From positions 62,001-126,000 of the forward strand of contig JAHHHL010000010.1 of NCBI GenBank assembly GCA_019359375.1: 64,000 nucleotides of DNA, read 5' to 3'. The position numbers were made by a program, and so were the translations under genes. Source of the stretch: Lyngbya sp. HA4199-MV5 (GTDB lineage Bacteria; Cyanobacteriota; Cyanobacteriia; Leptolyngbyales; Leptolyngbyaceae). Below are positions 48,653-54,977 of this stretch, piece by piece (the first letter of the stretch is position 1; the number at the start of each line of letters is the position of its first letter). The notes beneath the pieces are model-generated. The model saw only the letters and a program-made list of their open reading frames with translations, did no database searches and had not been told where the DNA came from.

Positions 48653-49492
48653 CTACTCGTCTGCTTTACAGCAAGGAGCAATTGGCGAGGTCGCGACTGG
48701 TTCCAAATTAGTTTGGCGGAGTAGGTCAGACCAGGCGCGGGCGATCGCAGCATCAACAAATTGCTTTCCTTGCACTTGAAGCCCCAGTGTGGTTAGCGCG
48801 TCATACCAGATGCCATTTGCGGCGTAAAAGGTGGCGCGATCGAGCGGAGTTTTGGCTATCGCTAGTTGGCGCTGTAGCTGAGTGGAAGGTGTAATGCGTT
48901 GAATACCACCGCTGAAGATAATTGGACTATCAATGCTTGGTTCAGCCAGGGCACTGTTACCTGAGTTGCAAAAGAGCCTGATTTCCCAACGATGGGGTGT
49001 GTTGGCTTGTAGAGGGGGAGCAGTGGCGGGAATGGGTAGACTCAAGACGGCGGCTGGCGTATGGGGAGGAATTTGAAACGTCAGACGGTGGCTGCTTTTG
49101 TTAGACCCATCTTGCAAGACAAGGACAGCTAGAGCACCGTCTTTGATGCCGCTGGACGTATGGAGCCAGAAGGTTGGACGATCGGCAGTGGTCAGTCCCC
49201 AGCGAACAGTTTTATGACCAGAAGGAGTGAGTGGCACAAGTGGGGTTAGCGAGGCTTCAGAACGATCGCCACAGCCTCGACCAGCACCGCCTTGACTGCG
49301 CCCACTGCCCGGATCGTTAACCACAGGTGGCGGTGGAAGGGCAGCAGGAGGGTTGAATGGAATGGCAACTGACGATGGATTAGCGATCGCGTTAGTTTGC
49401 GATCGCGCCACCTGAGCAGGGCTGAAGGCGACCACCAGTGCCAGGGTTGAGGCGACCCCCATCGTTGCATGGCTTAGTTGAATGTTAATCAT
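48653..49492 (-). CDS. DUF928 family secreted protein
   Basis: 279 residues. A signal-like N-terminus (MGVASTLALVVAFSPAQVA) precedes a Pro-rich linker and then the DUF928 core. That core has RGCGDRS-type Cys, LTPLVPLTPSGHKTVRWGLTTADRPTFWLHT, HRLTFQIPPH and RWEIRLFCNSG, then IQRITPSTQLQRQLAIAK and GIWYDALTTLG. The second copy at 61113-61817 has the same order of blocks. It overlaps the end of the CHAT-CHASE2 gene by eight bases, so it is in the same operon. DUF928 genes are found near CHASE2 and CHAT genes in cyanobacteria (from memory); biochemical role unknown, likely periplasmic. Confidence 0.8.
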   Translation of the reverse strand: MINIQLSHATMGVASTLALVVAFSPAQVARSQTNAIANPSSVAIPFNPPAALPPPPVVNDPGSGRSQGGAGRGCGDRSEASLTPLVPLTPSGHKTVRWGLTTADRPTFWLHTSSGIKDGALAVLVLQDGSNKSSHRLTFQIPPHTPAAVLSLPIPATAPPLQANTPHRWEIRLFCNSGNSALAEPSIDSPIIFSGGIQRITPSTQLQRQLAIAKTPLDRATFYAANGIWYDALTTLGLQVQGKQFVDAAIARAWSDLLRQTNLEPVATSPIAPCCKADE

Positions 49493-51848
49493 GAGGTGTT
49501 TTCGGTTTAGCTGTAGCCGTTAAGAGCGCTACAGAGGTGCTGGTGATCAACAGGGCAACGATGGGTGGAGCGAGGGGAATCCATCCCCCTTGAATCAAAC
49601 ATACCTGACACAGACCAATGAGAATGCCGATCGCAATCCCAACTGCCAGGATTAAAAATCCCAATCGGCGAAACTGCCACGCAAGCACGCCGCCGATGAT
49701 CGCCCAGCCTGCAATCCAGAGCGGCTCAATCCAGGTTGCCCAGACCCACAGCAACGGGCGGCGATCGAGCACGGCGCTGAGCATCTGACTGATCATTTGA
49801 GCGTGAAGCAGCACTCCGGGGATGCGATCGATATCTGCTTTACCAAACGGCGTTGTCCAATAGTCGCCGCTGCTGTGGGGGGCGGCAATGCCAATCAACA
49901 CAATTCGACCGTTGATCGCGTTGGGATTGATCTGGTCAGTCACTACTTGAGTCAGGGTTGCCTGTTGAGCAATCTCACGAGGAGAAGGCGCGGCACGGTA
50001 ATTGAGCAAGACCTGTCCACTGTTGGCAACGAGGGTTTGATAGCCGCCCGTGCGACGTTGCAGTTGGCGAAAAACGGTGTTGCTAAACTGCAAGTCGTTT
50101 TGGGGTGTTACCGTAGCTTGAATGCCCTTCGCCTCGAGATAGTGGTTTGCCAGTTGCACACTGAAGGCATAAGCAGCGGTACAGCGTGAGCTTGGGTTGG
50201 CGGGCAGAACGAGCAAATGACGACGCACTACGCCATCGGCATCGCGGACAAAATCACTGAATCCTAAACGGCTCTCTGGCACTTCTGGAGGAGGCAGAAC
50301 GCCGATCGGATCGCTCTTGGCAGCAGGGCGTTTACACACCGCGAACAGGTGGTTCTGTTTCAAACGGGTGGCGAGTTCAGGTACATCGGTGGGCGTATCG
50401 CGGTAGAGATCAAGCCCGATCGCGGCAGGTTTGTGCTGTCCCAGTTTTTGCAGCAAGCGGTTCAAGGTGCGATCGGAGATGGAACCGCGACGCATTTTTT
50501 CACCCTCTGCCTGAATGTCTTGCTCTGTAATGGTGACAGCCAGCAGACGAGCATCGGGCGGTTCAGCAGGACGCGACTGCATCAGGCGATCGAAGCTCCA
50601 GAGTTCCAACGGCTGTAACCAGCCCAAACAGCGCACTCCGGCAATCAAGCTAGTCACTACCAGGCTGTTGAACAGAACCATTTGTAGCTCGTGACGACTG
50701 GGCAAGTGCAGGGGAAACGATCGTGCGCCGCACCAGTCTTGCCAGGTTGGTGGCACCTCAGCAGGATTCTGACAGATAACCGGGAGCCAGGTGGCACAGG
50801 GAAAGTCGGCTTCCAGGGCTTGCAGTTTTTCTCGTGCCTCGCGCACAGCGGTATACAGCGATGCTCCACCCGCAAACGCGGTGAGAAAATGCTTGAGAAA
50901 CTCCTGCGCCACGCGATCGGGTACGGGTTCTCGCATCACGATGACCTGGGGCAAATGCAGGTCTGCCAGATCGCGTGCCAGTCCTAACCCATCGCAGGAG
51001 TTAAAGATTGCCAGCTTCAGCCCATGCGCGATCGCCGTTCGCAAGGCAAACTTCAATTGTGCGATCGTCAAACTTTCTGTTGCATTCACCGCAATGCTGC
51101 CGACTCCCGACTCCCGACTCCCGACTCCCTGCCCCGAACTATGTCCGGCAAAAAACAGCACATCCCAACCTGGCTCCCAAAGCTGCTGATTCAATTCACT
51201 GGCGTTTGGCTCCACCAAAAACGTGAGTTCGGCACCGGGCAATTGCTGCAACATCTGTTGATCTTTGGCAACGTCAATGCCCTCGTGGTTGCCCAGGATG
51301 GCTAGAATTCTGACCTTGCGGCGTGGTTTTGTCGCTGCTGCTTTGGTCGATCGCAGGTACTCTGGCACACTGAGCGCAATTTCTGCGTTGGGGTAATCGT
51401 CTAGAAACGACCAGAGGCACCACGGCAATCGCAATAGCGTTGCGTCATCAGCAACGATGATTAACCGAATGTGATCGGCAGGTCTAAGCTGCGTTCGTAA
51501 CTGGCGATCGATCTGCCGAAACGCCTCCGCGTTCAACCAGCGATTCAGAGCCGTTTGCAAGTCCTGGCAAAGCTGATGAAACTCGGTTTGAGAAAGGTGC
51601 GTCAGGTCGCCTTCATCGACTTCAAAGGATGGCGATCGAACACCCGATCGCCATCCTTTACTGCCATACAGGGCTTCATACAACCGTTGCCAGCGTCGAT
51701 ATAGCGCTTCTAGCTCTGGTGCGGCAGGCAAACTGCCTGTGAACTGCATCGGATTAGGACTATGCTCATCCCACAGTTGAGCAATCACAGTGGGCAACCC
51801 ATGCTGCAAGTCTCCGTTTCCCAAATTTAGAACAACGAGGTAGCGCAT
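49485..51848 (-). CDS. CHAT protease-CHASE2 transmembrane sensor protein
   Basis: A 787-residue membrane protein. Residues 1-375 hold an N-terminal region and a CHAT (caspase-like) peptidase domain with catalytic His236 (LFFAGHSS) and Cys285 (IFNSCDG). A TM follows at about 390-410. Residues ~413-690 form a CHASE2 sensory domain (FDRLMQSRP, LLAVTITEQDI, AAIGLDLYRD, LGFSDFVRDADGVVRRHL, GRIVLIGIAAPHSSGDYWTTPFG). Three TM helices end the protein (about 698-724, 730-751, 757-778). CHASE2 is extracytoplasmic, so the protease faces the cytoplasm and an outside signal could gate it (inference). A heptamer repeat is embedded three residues after the catalytic His. The gene lies after DUF1822 and overlaps the DUF928 gene. 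Confidence 0.88.
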   Translation of the reverse strand: MRYLVVLNLGNGDLQHGLPTVIAQLWDEHSPNPMQFTGSLPAAPELEALYRRWQRLYEALYGSKGWRSGVRSPSFEVDEGDLTHLSQTEFHQLCQDLQTALNRWLNAEAFRQIDRQLRTQLRPADHIRLIIVADDATLLRLPWCLWSFLDDYPNAEIALSVPEYLRSTKAAATKPRRKVRILAILGNHEGIDVAKDQQMLQQLPGAELTFLVEPNASELNQQLWEPGWDVLFFAGHSSGQGVGSRESGVGSIAVNATESLTIAQLKFALRTAIAHGLKLAIFNSCDGLGLARDLADLHLPQVIVMREPVPDRVAQEFLKHFLTAFAGGASLYTAVREAREKLQALEADFPCATWLPVICQNPAEVPPTWQDWCGARSFPLHLPSRHELQMVLFNSLVVTSLIAGVRCLGWLQPLELWSFDRLMQSRPAEPPDARLLAVTITEQDIQAEGEKMRRGSISDRTLNRLLQKLGQHKPAAIGLDLYRDTPTDVPELATRLKQNHLFAVCKRPAAKSDPIGVLPPPEVPESRLGFSDFVRDADGVVRRHLLVLPANPSSRCTAAYAFSVQLANHYLEAKGIQATVTPQNDLQFSNTVFRQLQRRTGGYQTLVANSGQVLLNYRAAPSPREIAQQATLTQVVTDQINPNAINGRIVLIGIAAPHSSGDYWTTPFGKADIDRIPGVLLHAQMISQMLSAVLDRRPLLWVWATWIEPLWIAGWAIIGGVLAWQFRRLGFLILAVGIAIGILIGLCQVCLIQGGWIPLAPPIVALLITSTSVALLTATAKPKTPHD
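51102..51129 (+). repeat. In-frame STRR: four GACTCCC heptamers inside the CHAT domain
   Basis: Four perfect tandem heptamers lie inside the CHAT-CHASE2 coding sequence. On the coding strand they encode the loop GVGSRESGVGS (about 241-251), right after catalytic His236. Since 7 is not a multiple of 3, any change of one unit would shift the reading frame. Confidence 0.9.
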
Positions 51849-52050: not shown

Positions 52051-53217
52051 CTAGACAACAAAGTCTTCGGTGATGATGGTGTTGTCGATCGCCACCTGCA
52101 AACTGAACTGAGTCTCAGGCGGGCACTTGAATCGTTTTAACTGAATCACGTTGTCTCGATCGCGGGCTTGTATCGCTTGAACCGTTTCGCCAGCAGTAGA
52201 CAGCAGGGTCAGGCTCAGTCCTTCGGGTAGGCAATCAGTGGCATCAAGGGGACGAAGCTGAGCTTGAATGCTGACTCGACCATCTGCTTGTGGCTCCACG
52301 GCAACGAGCAACAAGATATTTTTATTGGGAAGACGCACCCGCTTGGCTCTACGGATGGATCGCTGAGTGCGATCGTCGCGTCGAAAGTTAAACGCCTCGG
52401 CTTCAATACCCAACTGCTCCAGTGTTTGCCAGCCTTCGTCAAAACGATTTTGCAACCACTGGCTGAGGTTTGCAAGGGTGCGCGTGAGCGAGGTGGATTC
52501 GCCCCGACGCGATCGCCCCAGTTGTTGTCGCCAGTCATCATTAGTAATCAACGCTGCCCAAAGGTGAAAGGGAATTTCTAAACGGGGTTGCAGTACGGCG
52601 GGATTTGCCAACCGTTGCAGCAGGTTTTCTGCCTGAACTGCGGACAGCGGGGACAGGGGCGCAATTTCTGTCCTGGTCAGCTCTGGAAACTGACACACAA
52701 TCCACAGAACGCTCAAATCTTGCACCAACTGATAAGCATCCAGGCAATAGACGCGGTGGTCTGCATCGTAGGTGCCCAGAGTCTTGAGCTGTGCATGGGT
52801 GGTGTATGCCCAAAGGCGAAGGCACAGATCGTCTGGGTCTACCTGAACAGCCAGATAATAGTCGCCTGCCCACGCAGGAAGATCGACCCACTCTTGCGGC
52901 ACTTGGAGTTCGCTGGTGTCGATGGTTTTGTCTGGAATGAGAATCAACCGCCGATCGCAAAGGTCGATCGCGGTGCCTCTCACCAGTTCCCCTAAAAGCG
53001 GCACTGCACCAGACCAGGCAGTTGCGTTTGGGGCGTGGTTTGAATGATAGTCTGCCTGTAGCCAGGGCAATACTGTGTGCAAGCAAACTTGATTTAAGTA
53101 CGTGTTCCATTGAGTTAGGGGATTTGAAGCAGATTGGCTGTGCTGCCAGGACTCCTGGTGAATCTCTGGTGAAATCTCCAGCCTCAACTCAGTCAAGGTA
53201 TCGGGTAAGAAGCTCAT
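52051..53217 (-). CDS. DUF1822 family protein
   Basis: A 388-residue soluble protein of the cyanobacterial DUF1822 family: VPQEWVDLPAWAGDYYLAVQVDPDDLCLRLWAYTTHAQL, then the conserved DADHRVYCLDAYQLVQDLSVLWIV and a C-terminal beta-rich part (KNILLLVAVEPQADGRVSIQAQLRPLDATDCLPEGLSLTLL). No TM or enzymatic motif is visible. It sits between the sigma-like gene and CHAT-CHASE2. By analogy with CHAT-substrate-sigma systems it could be a sigma partner or protease substrate (inference only). Its start lies within a 22-bp tandem duplication that moved it away from the sigma stop codon. Confidence 0.82.
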   Translation of the reverse strand: MSFLPDTLTELRLEISPEIHQESWQHSQSASNPLTQWNTYLNQVCLHTVLPWLQADYHSNHAPNATAWSGAVPLLGELVRGTAIDLCDRRLILIPDKTIDTSELQVPQEWVDLPAWAGDYYLAVQVDPDDLCLRLWAYTTHAQLKTLGTYDADHRVYCLDAYQLVQDLSVLWIVCQFPELTRTEIAPLSPLSAVQAENLLQRLANPAVLQPRLEIPFHLWAALITNDDWRQQLGRSRRGESTSLTRTLANLSQWLQNRFDEGWQTLEQLGIEAEAFNFRRDDRTQRSIRRAKRVRLPNKNILLLVAVEPQADGRVSIQAQLRPLDATDCLPEGLSLTLLSTAGETVQAIQARDRDNVIQLKRFKCPPETQFSLQVAIDNTIITEDFVV

Positions 53218-53240
53218 AGGTATCGGGTAAGAAGCTCATA
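53197..53240 (+). repeat. Perfect 22-bp tandem duplication across the sigma/DUF1822 junction
   Basis: The unit GGTATCGGGTAAGAAGCTCA plus TA occurs at 53197-53218 and again at 53219-53240 without mismatch. Each copy contains the ATG of DUF1822 (53215-53217 and 53237-53239, read on the minus strand). The outer ATG overlaps the sigma stop as ATGA but now leads out of frame to a 16-codon peptide. Confidence 0.95.
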
Positions 53241-54660
53241 GGTATTCCTGGAAGTCGCGATTTGGGGCGATCGTTCCGCTATGGGATTGATCCGTCTCGT
53301 AATGAAGCTGCAACCATTCTTCTAAAATGGTGCTCATAGATTTAACCACGGTGGAGGTTGGCGAAATATGCAGCGTCTCCTGGCTCCAGTGAGTTAAGGC
53401 TAAGAGTAACGTTTCTCGCGCTTTGGTGAGTTTGCGAGAGACAGTGTATTGCTGCACGGCAAACTGTTGAGCCATTTGCTGTTGAGATAGTTTTGCCTGG
53501 TAGTAGAGTTGCAGTAGCTCTTGCATGGCTGGATCGAGCTTCGCCAGAGACTCTTTCAGCACCGCGTTGATTTGGTGTTGCTGAGTCTGACGATCCTGAG
53601 TCTCTTCGGCAGCAATCAGATCTGCCAGCAGCGAATCACGATCGCGATCGGGCACATCATCCTGAAGTTCACCCGCATCCTGTCCTGGTTTGGGGGCATT
53701 CAGCGACGTAACGCGAGGGTACAGGTATGCCCGCACTCGGCTCACACAGGCTATCAGCAAATGTTCCAACGTTGCAGGAGTGCAATCTAAACCAGGTGAA
53801 CTGCGTTGGTGACGCTGCTGGTTGTAGCGATCGGCGATCGCGTTCCAGGTTGGGCGATCTGGTGCGGCAAGCTGACGCAATCCCGGTGCTTTTCGAGGCA
53901 GATAAACGGCTTCAAAACACGTCCATGCTAATAGAGAGCGATCGATGTCATCACTCCCAAAGCCAGCATTTTGCAGCGCTTCTGTGAGTTGTTTCCGGCT
54001 CAGCTTCAGCAGCAAGCCCCAATCATTGCAACGGTCTGCCTCCCGACGACGGCGCAAGTCATCTCGAATGGTGTTGCCAAAAGCTTGACTGGCATACGTT
54101 TTGAGGCTGGGCAGTTGATTAGAGTCGAACGCATTGAGAATTTTGGGCACCGCCGCGATCGCCACCTGAAAGCAATCCGACAACTGATGCTGTGATTGGT
54201 GTAACTGAGCCACGATCCGCTGTGCGCTCCAGTAGCAGGATTCTTGCAGGTAAGCGGAGAGGTGACCGAGGGGAAGAGGTGAGGAGGGAGGAGGTGAGGA
54301 GGGAGGAGGGAGGAGGGAGGGGTGTAGGGTGTGGGGTGTGAGGTGTGGGGTGAATATTCCTGCGTCTCCGTGTCTCCGTGTCCCCGCGTCTCTGTATCCC
54401 TGCGTCTCCGTGTCTCCGCGTCCCCGCGTCCCTGTGTCCCCGCGTCTCCCTATCCCCCCACTCTCCCCTGCCTCTTCCTGCCAGCGTTTGTGCCAGTACG
54501 TTGCCCAGAAGTGCTCGGAGGTAGTTGCGTCGTCAAGTTGCTTCAGGCAAGACTGCATACTGCGGCGTAAGCGAGCATCCGTTGCCCAGCCACGAAAAAC
54601 GTCTTCCTCAAATTGCAGGAAGGTGGAGAAAAGATCGAGGAGGGTTTGACGCGATCGCAT
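53236..54660 (-). CDS. Sigma-70-like transcription factor with in-frame repeat insertion
   Basis: A 474-residue protein from the Met at 54660. The C-terminal part shows a sigma region 4-like helix-turn-helix (LAKLDPAMQELLQLYYQAKLSQQQMAQQFAVQQYTVSRKLTKARETLL). The middle has a region 2-like stretch (FDSNQLPSLKTYASQAFGNTIRDDLRRRREADRC). I recall similar sigma-like proteins beside DUF1822 genes in cyanobacteria. Residues ~65-132 are pure translated tandem repeats (Arg/Gly/Asp/Thr, then Pro/Ser/His-rich) inserted between two conserved parts (HKRWQEEAG and HLSAYLQESCYW). The frame extends upstream to 54825 through more low-complexity sequence, probably leader. It is first in the minus-strand operon with DUF1822. 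Confidence 0.75.
   Translation of the reverse strand: MRSRQTLLDLFSTFLQFEEDVFRGWATDARLRRSMQSCLKQLDDATTSEHFWATYWHKRWQEEAGESGGIGRRGDTGTRGRGDTETQGYRDAGTRRHGDAGIFTPHLTPHTLHPSLLPPPSSPPPSSPLPLGHLSAYLQESCYWSAQRIVAQLHQSQHQLSDCFQVAIAAVPKILNAFDSNQLPSLKTYASQAFGNTIRDDLRRRREADRCNDWGLLLKLSRKQLTEALQNAGFGSDDIDRSLLAWTCFEAVYLPRKAPGLRQLAAPDRPTWNAIADRYNQQRHQRSSPGLDCTPATLEHLLIACVSRVRAYLYPRVTSLNAPKPGQDAGELQDDVPDRDRDSLLADLIAAEETQDRQTQQHQINAVLKESLAKLDPAMQELLQLYYQAKLSQQQMAQQFAVQQYTVSRKLTKARETLLLALTHWSQETLHISPTSTVVKSMSTILEEWLQLHYETDQSHSGTIAPNRDFQEYL
54265..54468 (+). repeat. Repeat block inside the sigma-like gene: 11 octamers YGYRTCYC and flanking heptamers
   Basis: Eleven tandem octamers run from 54361 to 54448 (e.g. 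CGTGTCTC, CGCGTCCC, TGTATCCC). Heptamers GGTGTRR (54321-54352) and GAGGAGG-type units (from about 54281) adjoin. All lie within the coding sequence and translate in frame to residues ~65-132. Octamer slippage changes the frame because 8 is not a multiple of 3. Confidence 0.9.
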
Positions 54661-54776
54661 AGTGCAAGGAGAAAGGAGGCAGGGGAGCAGGGGAGGCAGC
54701 GGAAGCAGGGGAGGCAGAGGAGGGGAATTTTGAGTAACGCTTTGTGCCGCAGCGGTGGGGAGGTTTAAGTTTTGAG

Positions 54777-54977
54777 GCTGGTTGACTGACAAATCTTTTA
54801 GCGAGTACTTGAACCCGCCTTGCACTGAAAGTGCGGGCTGATGGCAGAAAGTCCTCTCAAGAGGACTACGAGCGTCTTACAACCCGTTTTAACGGGTTTC
54901 GCACCCTTAGCCCCGATTTTAATCACAGGCGGGTGAGCAACGAAGCGACCAGCCTTTCAAGATTTTGTCAGTCAATC
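54777..54977. mobile_element. MITE of about 200 bp with terminal inverted repeats and 10-bp target duplication
   Basis: Left end TGGTTGACTGACAAATCTT (54779-54797) and right end (54959-54978, complement TGATTGACTGACAAAATCTT) form imperfect terminal inverted repeats. AAGTTTTGAG flanks it on both sides (54767-54776 and 54978-54987), as expected for a target-site duplication. Inside are three hairpin-forming motifs: CCGCCTTGCACTGAAAGTGCGGGC, AGTCCTCTCAAGAGGACT and AACCCGTTTTAACGGGTT. There is no coding capacity. It lies in the leader of the sigma-like gene, between it and the upstream CHAT gene. Confidence 0.82.

Follow-up and report, generated by a model that had tools for sequence, protein, structure and literature searches.

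The 64,000-nucleotide stretch of cyanobacterial DNA analysed here (the window) carries a sigma-70-family gene whose reading frame runs through a block of degenerate 7- and 8-bp tandem repeats. We put a probability of roughly 80% on the reading that short tandem repeat elements are dispersed through the genome and persist in disordered loops only where they keep the frame, with the sigma insert as one case. Because inserts of this type also lie in numerous housekeeping genes of the genus without breaking their frame, the block is best regarded as an evolving linker that the protein tolerates, rather than as an on/off switch. A regulator with repeat units not divisible by three is easily called phase-variable, and it is the comparison across genes and across species that here tells a switch from a tolerated linker.

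The repeat block within the sigma gene

Table 1. Features of the sigma gene, its repeat insert and its neighbours (window coordinates)
Feature	Position	Strand	Details
Sigma-70-family gene	53236..54660	(-)	474 aa from ATG 54660; ORF listing and profile matches
Conserved N-terminal domain	54470..54660	(-)	~64 residues, ...FWATYWHKRWQ; found in homologues
In-frame repeat element	54265..54468	(-)	~204 bp / ~68 residues; mostly disordered in model; missing from most homologues
Purine-rich arm (coding strand)	54362..54449	(-)	11 octamers, GAGACGCG / GGGACACG type; TRF period 8, 11.0 copies
Pyrimidine-rich arm (coding strand)	54265..54352	(-)	heptamers CACCCCA, CCCTCCT and some 8-bp units; TRF periods 7, 15
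Sigma region 2	54043..54219	(-)	Pfam Sigma70_r2, E 0.0012, below curated cutoff
Sigma region 4	53407..53547	(-)	Pfam Sigma70_r4, E 3.6e-06, above cutoff
DUF1822 gene	52051..53217	(-)	directly downstream of sigma gene; PF08852 E 1.5e-93
CHAT-CHASE2 gene	49485..51848	(-)	third in row; profile match and neighbour comparison

The sigma-like character of the gene, as originally predicted, is upheld by a match to TIGR02937 (sigma70-ECF, 5e-33, above cutoff) and by the presence of both regions 2 and 4, of which region 4 is solid and region 2 weak. Nearly all Foldseek rows listed for the structural model are bacterial sigma factors, with only one hit below E 0.001 among those listed and low whole-chain TM-scores. 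The N-terminus was set by conservation among homologues; an alternative GTG start at 54825 in the ORF listing would give 529 aa.

The repeat block lies between the conserved N-terminal domain and sigma region 2, and a single minus-strand ORF crosses it without a stop, so that the insertion is in frame as had been proposed. Read along the coding strand, purine-rich octamers (GAGACACG type) are followed by the pyrimidine-rich heptamers. Tandem Repeats Finder (TRF) reports 75% matches for the period-8 array, a period-40 row (five octamers) with a score of 155, and period-7/15 arrays at 54258-54352. Together with the ORF listing, these results bear out the original prediction as to coordinates, number of octamers (11) and insert size. 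Its description as a pure tandem repeat does not hold, as the units are degenerate: self-identity of the insert amounts to 70% (period 8) and 69% (period 7), and no perfect run is longer than 2.4 octamers or 3.6 heptamers.

A hairpin-forming element was considered and rejected, since the insert does not fold better than its dinucleotide shuffles (z-scores of +0.78 for RNA and +1.92 for DNA). The insert contains matches to a G-quadruplex motif on both strands.

AlphaFold2, run with 73 aligned homologues, places the folded parts of the sigma protein mostly above a pLDDT of 90, with values of mostly 76-95 for the N-terminal domain. The insert scores 35-50 and is modelled without secondary structure over roughly residues 70-121. 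Hence, it is predicted to form a mostly disordered linker of about 68 residues connecting the N-terminal domain to region 2.

Linker length and reading frame among homologues

Homologous loci were compared in many cyanobacteria, and the linker was measured automatically, giving 109 distinct linkers from 112 loci. The most common length is 14-15 aa, and 102 of the 109 linkers span 9-33 aa. The remaining seven, of 38-88 aa, are of the purine-to-pyrimidine repeat type, all located at one site and all in frame. The insertion is thus missing from nearly all homologues and is not ancestral, in agreement with the original prediction. In a quick maximum-likelihood tree, at least three changes are required to account for the repeat-type linkers, also when well-supported branches only are counted; two of them belong to paralogues (L005 and L121) of a single genome (G018). 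From these sequence comparisons, the sigma insert is a derived state, acquired at least three times among the homologues.

The N- and C-terminal parts lie within one ORF at all 112 loci, and the three loci outside the automatic measurement also join the N-terminal domain to the core. The closest named relative that we found, Leptolyngbya sp. FACHB-321, has its own orthologous in-frame array, with a linker identical to that of a same-genus genome (G003). Compared with the array of the window, it is short by 24 bp (three octamers) and by 15 bp (7 + 8), both multiples of three, which is the pattern expected from selection for frame. Variation in insert length between species, also anticipated, is evident both from this pair and from the range of the repeat-type linkers.

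These data bear directly on the central claim of the original prediction, namely that gain or loss of a single 7- or 8-bp unit, which we take to mean slipped-strand events, shifts the frame and turns the sigma domains off. The arithmetic behind it is right: neither unit size is divisible by three, and both alternative frames of the gene reach a stop before the sigma domains are complete. Array length also differs among species, as a slipping array would predict. Yet none of the 112 sigma loci, sampled at about one genome per species, is out of frame, where a contingency locus would display both ON and OFF frames. Cyanobacteria are often polyploid, and an assembly represents a consensus sequence, so that OFF alleles in a small minority of copies would go unseen in this comparison. 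The frame-neutral difference to the nearest orthologue and the degeneracy of the units likewise speak against switching, and so do similar arrays in IleS, NadE and MutS, where an OFF state is expected to be lethal or severe. Rehm et al. 2015 (PMC4692102) consider phase variation unlikely for the heptamer repeats of Nostoc and Xanthomonas. Taken together, we consider a phase-variable regulator quite improbable. Known phase-variable simple sequence repeat (contingency) loci share with the sigma gene in-gene tandem units not divisible by three, but here the units are degenerate, in frame in every homologue examined, and present in housekeeping genes too.

Another explanation, that an intergenic block joins two separate ORFs or that the repeat is misassembled, would gain from the draft nature of the assembly (95 contigs) and from the tendency of tandem repeats to collapse in assembly. 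It is, however, hardly compatible with insert-free homologues that form one continuous protein, or with the orthologous array, in frame too, in the assembly of the related FACHB-321, and we regard such an artefact as very improbable.

The same elements in other genes of the genus

Arrays of the sigma-insert type occur inside many ORFs of the genome from which the window derives. About 1.5 Mb was sampled, comprising 412 kb that is biased because it was chosen for octamers, and 1.13 Mb chosen regardless of repeats, for which gene calls are approximate and come from a home-made hexamer model. In the 412-kb scan, array-carrying genes named by profile are IleS, exonuclease III (ExoIII), RecG, nicotinate phosphoribosyltransferase (NAPRTase), NAD synthetase (NadE) and ThiO. 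Further array-carrying ORFs in the 1.13-Mb sample include MutS (twice), a RecN-like and an RsmG-like ORF; names in this sample were read from translations and are not profile results. The octamer can be dismissed as a sigma-specific element: 14 sites in the genome match its pattern, and several lie within other ORFs. The notion that such repeats rarely sit in frame within genes, also part of the original prediction, is wrong for this genus, where in-frame arrays occupy many housekeeping genes.

The sites of insertion can be placed relative to known folds in two cases. Alignment to proteins of solved structure shows that the ExoIII insert immediately precedes the GDFN motif and that the IleS insert comes ahead of the PADMYLEGSDQHRGW stretch. 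Placement in loops or linkers is supported by the sigma model and by the ExoIII alignment.

In ExoIII, ThiO and NadE, inserts are found at one shared site in seven members of the genus, with a length that differs in almost every species. Most are purine-rich and then pyrimidine-rich; the shortest, of 11 aa in the ExoIII of one genome (G004), is not clearly of the repeat type. Outside the genus, the same site mostly holds 0-15 residues and in some cases up to 33. Across sigma, ExoIII, ThiO and NadE, with lengths tabulated from draft assemblies, all 27 distinct insert lengths are in frame, for which the chance would be (1/3)^27 if they were independent. Under independence this puts the out-of-frame fraction below about 10%, a rough bound because the alleles share ancestry and are not fully independent. 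At the level of sequence, in-gene copies thus retain the reading frame.

For the two insert sites of MutS, 38 of 40 site-genome combinations are multiples of three. One exception (G013) has a linker of 46 nt that carries no array; in the other (G010, locus L332), a small indel lies immediately outside the array. We considered the latter as a possible OFF state and rejected it: the break lies after the array, beside the TGPNASGK motif, and hence does not reflect a lost repeat unit. The frame shift just downstream of this repeat insert could be a sequencing error or a real loss.

Two further ORFs deserve mention. The MutS gene at G000:C80:188662-191694 (L211:8662-11694), named by sequence inspection, harbors two separate in-frame inserts, which with their short flanks measure about 61 and 78 residues, and the second MutS insert site is expanded in many genomes. 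An ORF at G000:C87:153846-155286 (L157:7847-9286) with weak lipid-A-disaccharide-synthase-related similarity contains an in-frame octamer/heptamer insert; lpxB is marked as a repeat-associated gene in Nostoc by Rehm et al. 2015 (PMC4692102).

The variation in these enzymes also bears on the possibility that selected, frame-neutral length steps tune how the N-terminal domain is spaced from, or interacts with, the sigma core. Such tuning would fit the wide length variation between close relatives (59 versus 76 aa) and the gain of such elements by the same linker at least three times. However, unrelated enzymes vary in a like manner, at one site each, so that no selection specific to the sigma factor is needed, and 14-15 aa suffice in most homologues. 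We therefore consider functional tuning of the linker unlikely.

Distribution of the elements and a model for their persistence

The two-arm layout recurs among these repeats. In the unbiased 1.13 Mb, neighbouring tracts follow the purine-to-pyrimidine order 64 times and the reverse order once, and pooling of both samples gives 83 against 3. By symmetry, this order is equal on both strands. Smaller samples from other cyanobacteria lean toward the same order. Of the 64 elements in this order, nine sit well within predicted genes and have coding signal on either side, while about 80% of the 1.13 Mb is coding. Genes thus contain fewer elements than their share of the sequence would predict, although in-gene copies are not rare. 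Neither the folding test nor the stop content of extragenic elements revealed a cause for the fixed order.

An intrinsically stop-free element was also considered. The share with at least one open frame is 34% for extragenic elements, 47% for shuffles and 79% for randomly chosen stretches of the genome, which rejects this idea. As the extragenic elements are not unusually stop-free, the in-gene copies represent a filtered subset.

We propose the following scheme for a tolerated in-frame linker. Each element consists of two tandem arrays, the first purine-rich and the second pyrimidine-rich, separated by a short spacer, with copies presumably arising or expanding through slippage or recombination. 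Most copies are intergenic, and persistence within a gene would require a site in a surface loop or linker and a net length that is a multiple of three, with purifying selection as the probable filter. The spread of the elements may reflect local expansion and not mobility. As the insert is in frame and is predicted to be a disordered linker, the sigma gene would stay on, and array changes that persist would alter linker length without any switching. The longer sigma linker would by default be a near-neutral spacer.

In a broader form, which we hold with slightly better than even confidence, a genus-wide two-arm element keeps entering the loops of essential proteins, mismatch repair and a sigma factor among them, and changing the length of these loops, and thereby acts as a natural, fast source of disordered segments under frame selection. 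If this genus-wide pattern is true, it would be a bacterial example of dispersed repeats of non-coding type supplying disordered segments to essential proteins.

Relation to known repeat families

The elements share the hallmarks of cyanobacterial short tandemly repeated repetitive (STRR) sequences and G-rich heptamer repeats, being short G- or C-rich tandem units in many dispersed copies that are mainly intergenic. Those repeats (PMC4692102) resemble the present ones in their 7-8 bp G-/C-rich units, dispersal and variable copy number; the two-arm purine-then-pyrimidine layout and the genus-wide retention of frame in housekeeping genes set the present elements apart. In Nostoc PCC 7120, 68% of the heptamer repeats are intergenic (Rehm et al. 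2015, PMC4692102), which implies a sizeable intragenic share. In a search covering few subscription journals, we found no published account of heptamer arrays that sit in frame within housekeeping genes of cyanobacteria.

The nearest parallel is offered by the Rickettsia palindromic elements (RPE) and the Wolbachia coding palindromes, which are inserted in frame into assorted housekeeping genes and typically occupy non-structured segments (Ogata et al., cited in PMC2996958). The present elements, too, are in frame in assorted housekeeping genes at unstructured sites, with the site checked for sigma (model) and for ExoIII and IleS (alignment). In contrast to the palindromic RPE, they are 7-8 bp tandem arrays with no hairpin signal and a length varying by species. 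Lacking the hairpin signal, they are not filed as RPE members despite the shared outcome.

Genomic neighbourhood of the sigma gene

Of the 47 homologue loci for which a neighbour matched at all, 46 have a DUF1822 gene close to the sigma gene and 19 have a CHAT-CHASE2 gene. CHAT is a caspase-related fold. Predicted conflict systems have been described in which an ECF sigma factor and DUF1822 stand beside caspase-domain genes (Kaur et al. 2021, PMC8195603), resembling the row of sigma, DUF1822 and CHAT with CHASE2 in the window. Those systems include an EACC2 domain, and the likeness of the window rests on the sigma, DUF1822 and CHAT-CHASE2 neighbours. The repeat insert is no part of the definition of that system, and the neighbourhood may bear on a possible role of the sigma factor, not on the repeat.

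Further short repeats are seen around these genes. A perfect 22-bp direct repeat of 2.3 copies (53196-53245) runs from the end of the sigma gene into the beginning of the DUF1822 gene, and a 9-bp array (GGAGGCAGG) at 54675-54723 lies immediately upstream of the sigma start codon. The CHAT-CHASE2 gene contains a heptamer array in frame (CCGACTC x4.3, 51100-51129, minus strand), which gives it about seven residues more than most relatives outside the genus.
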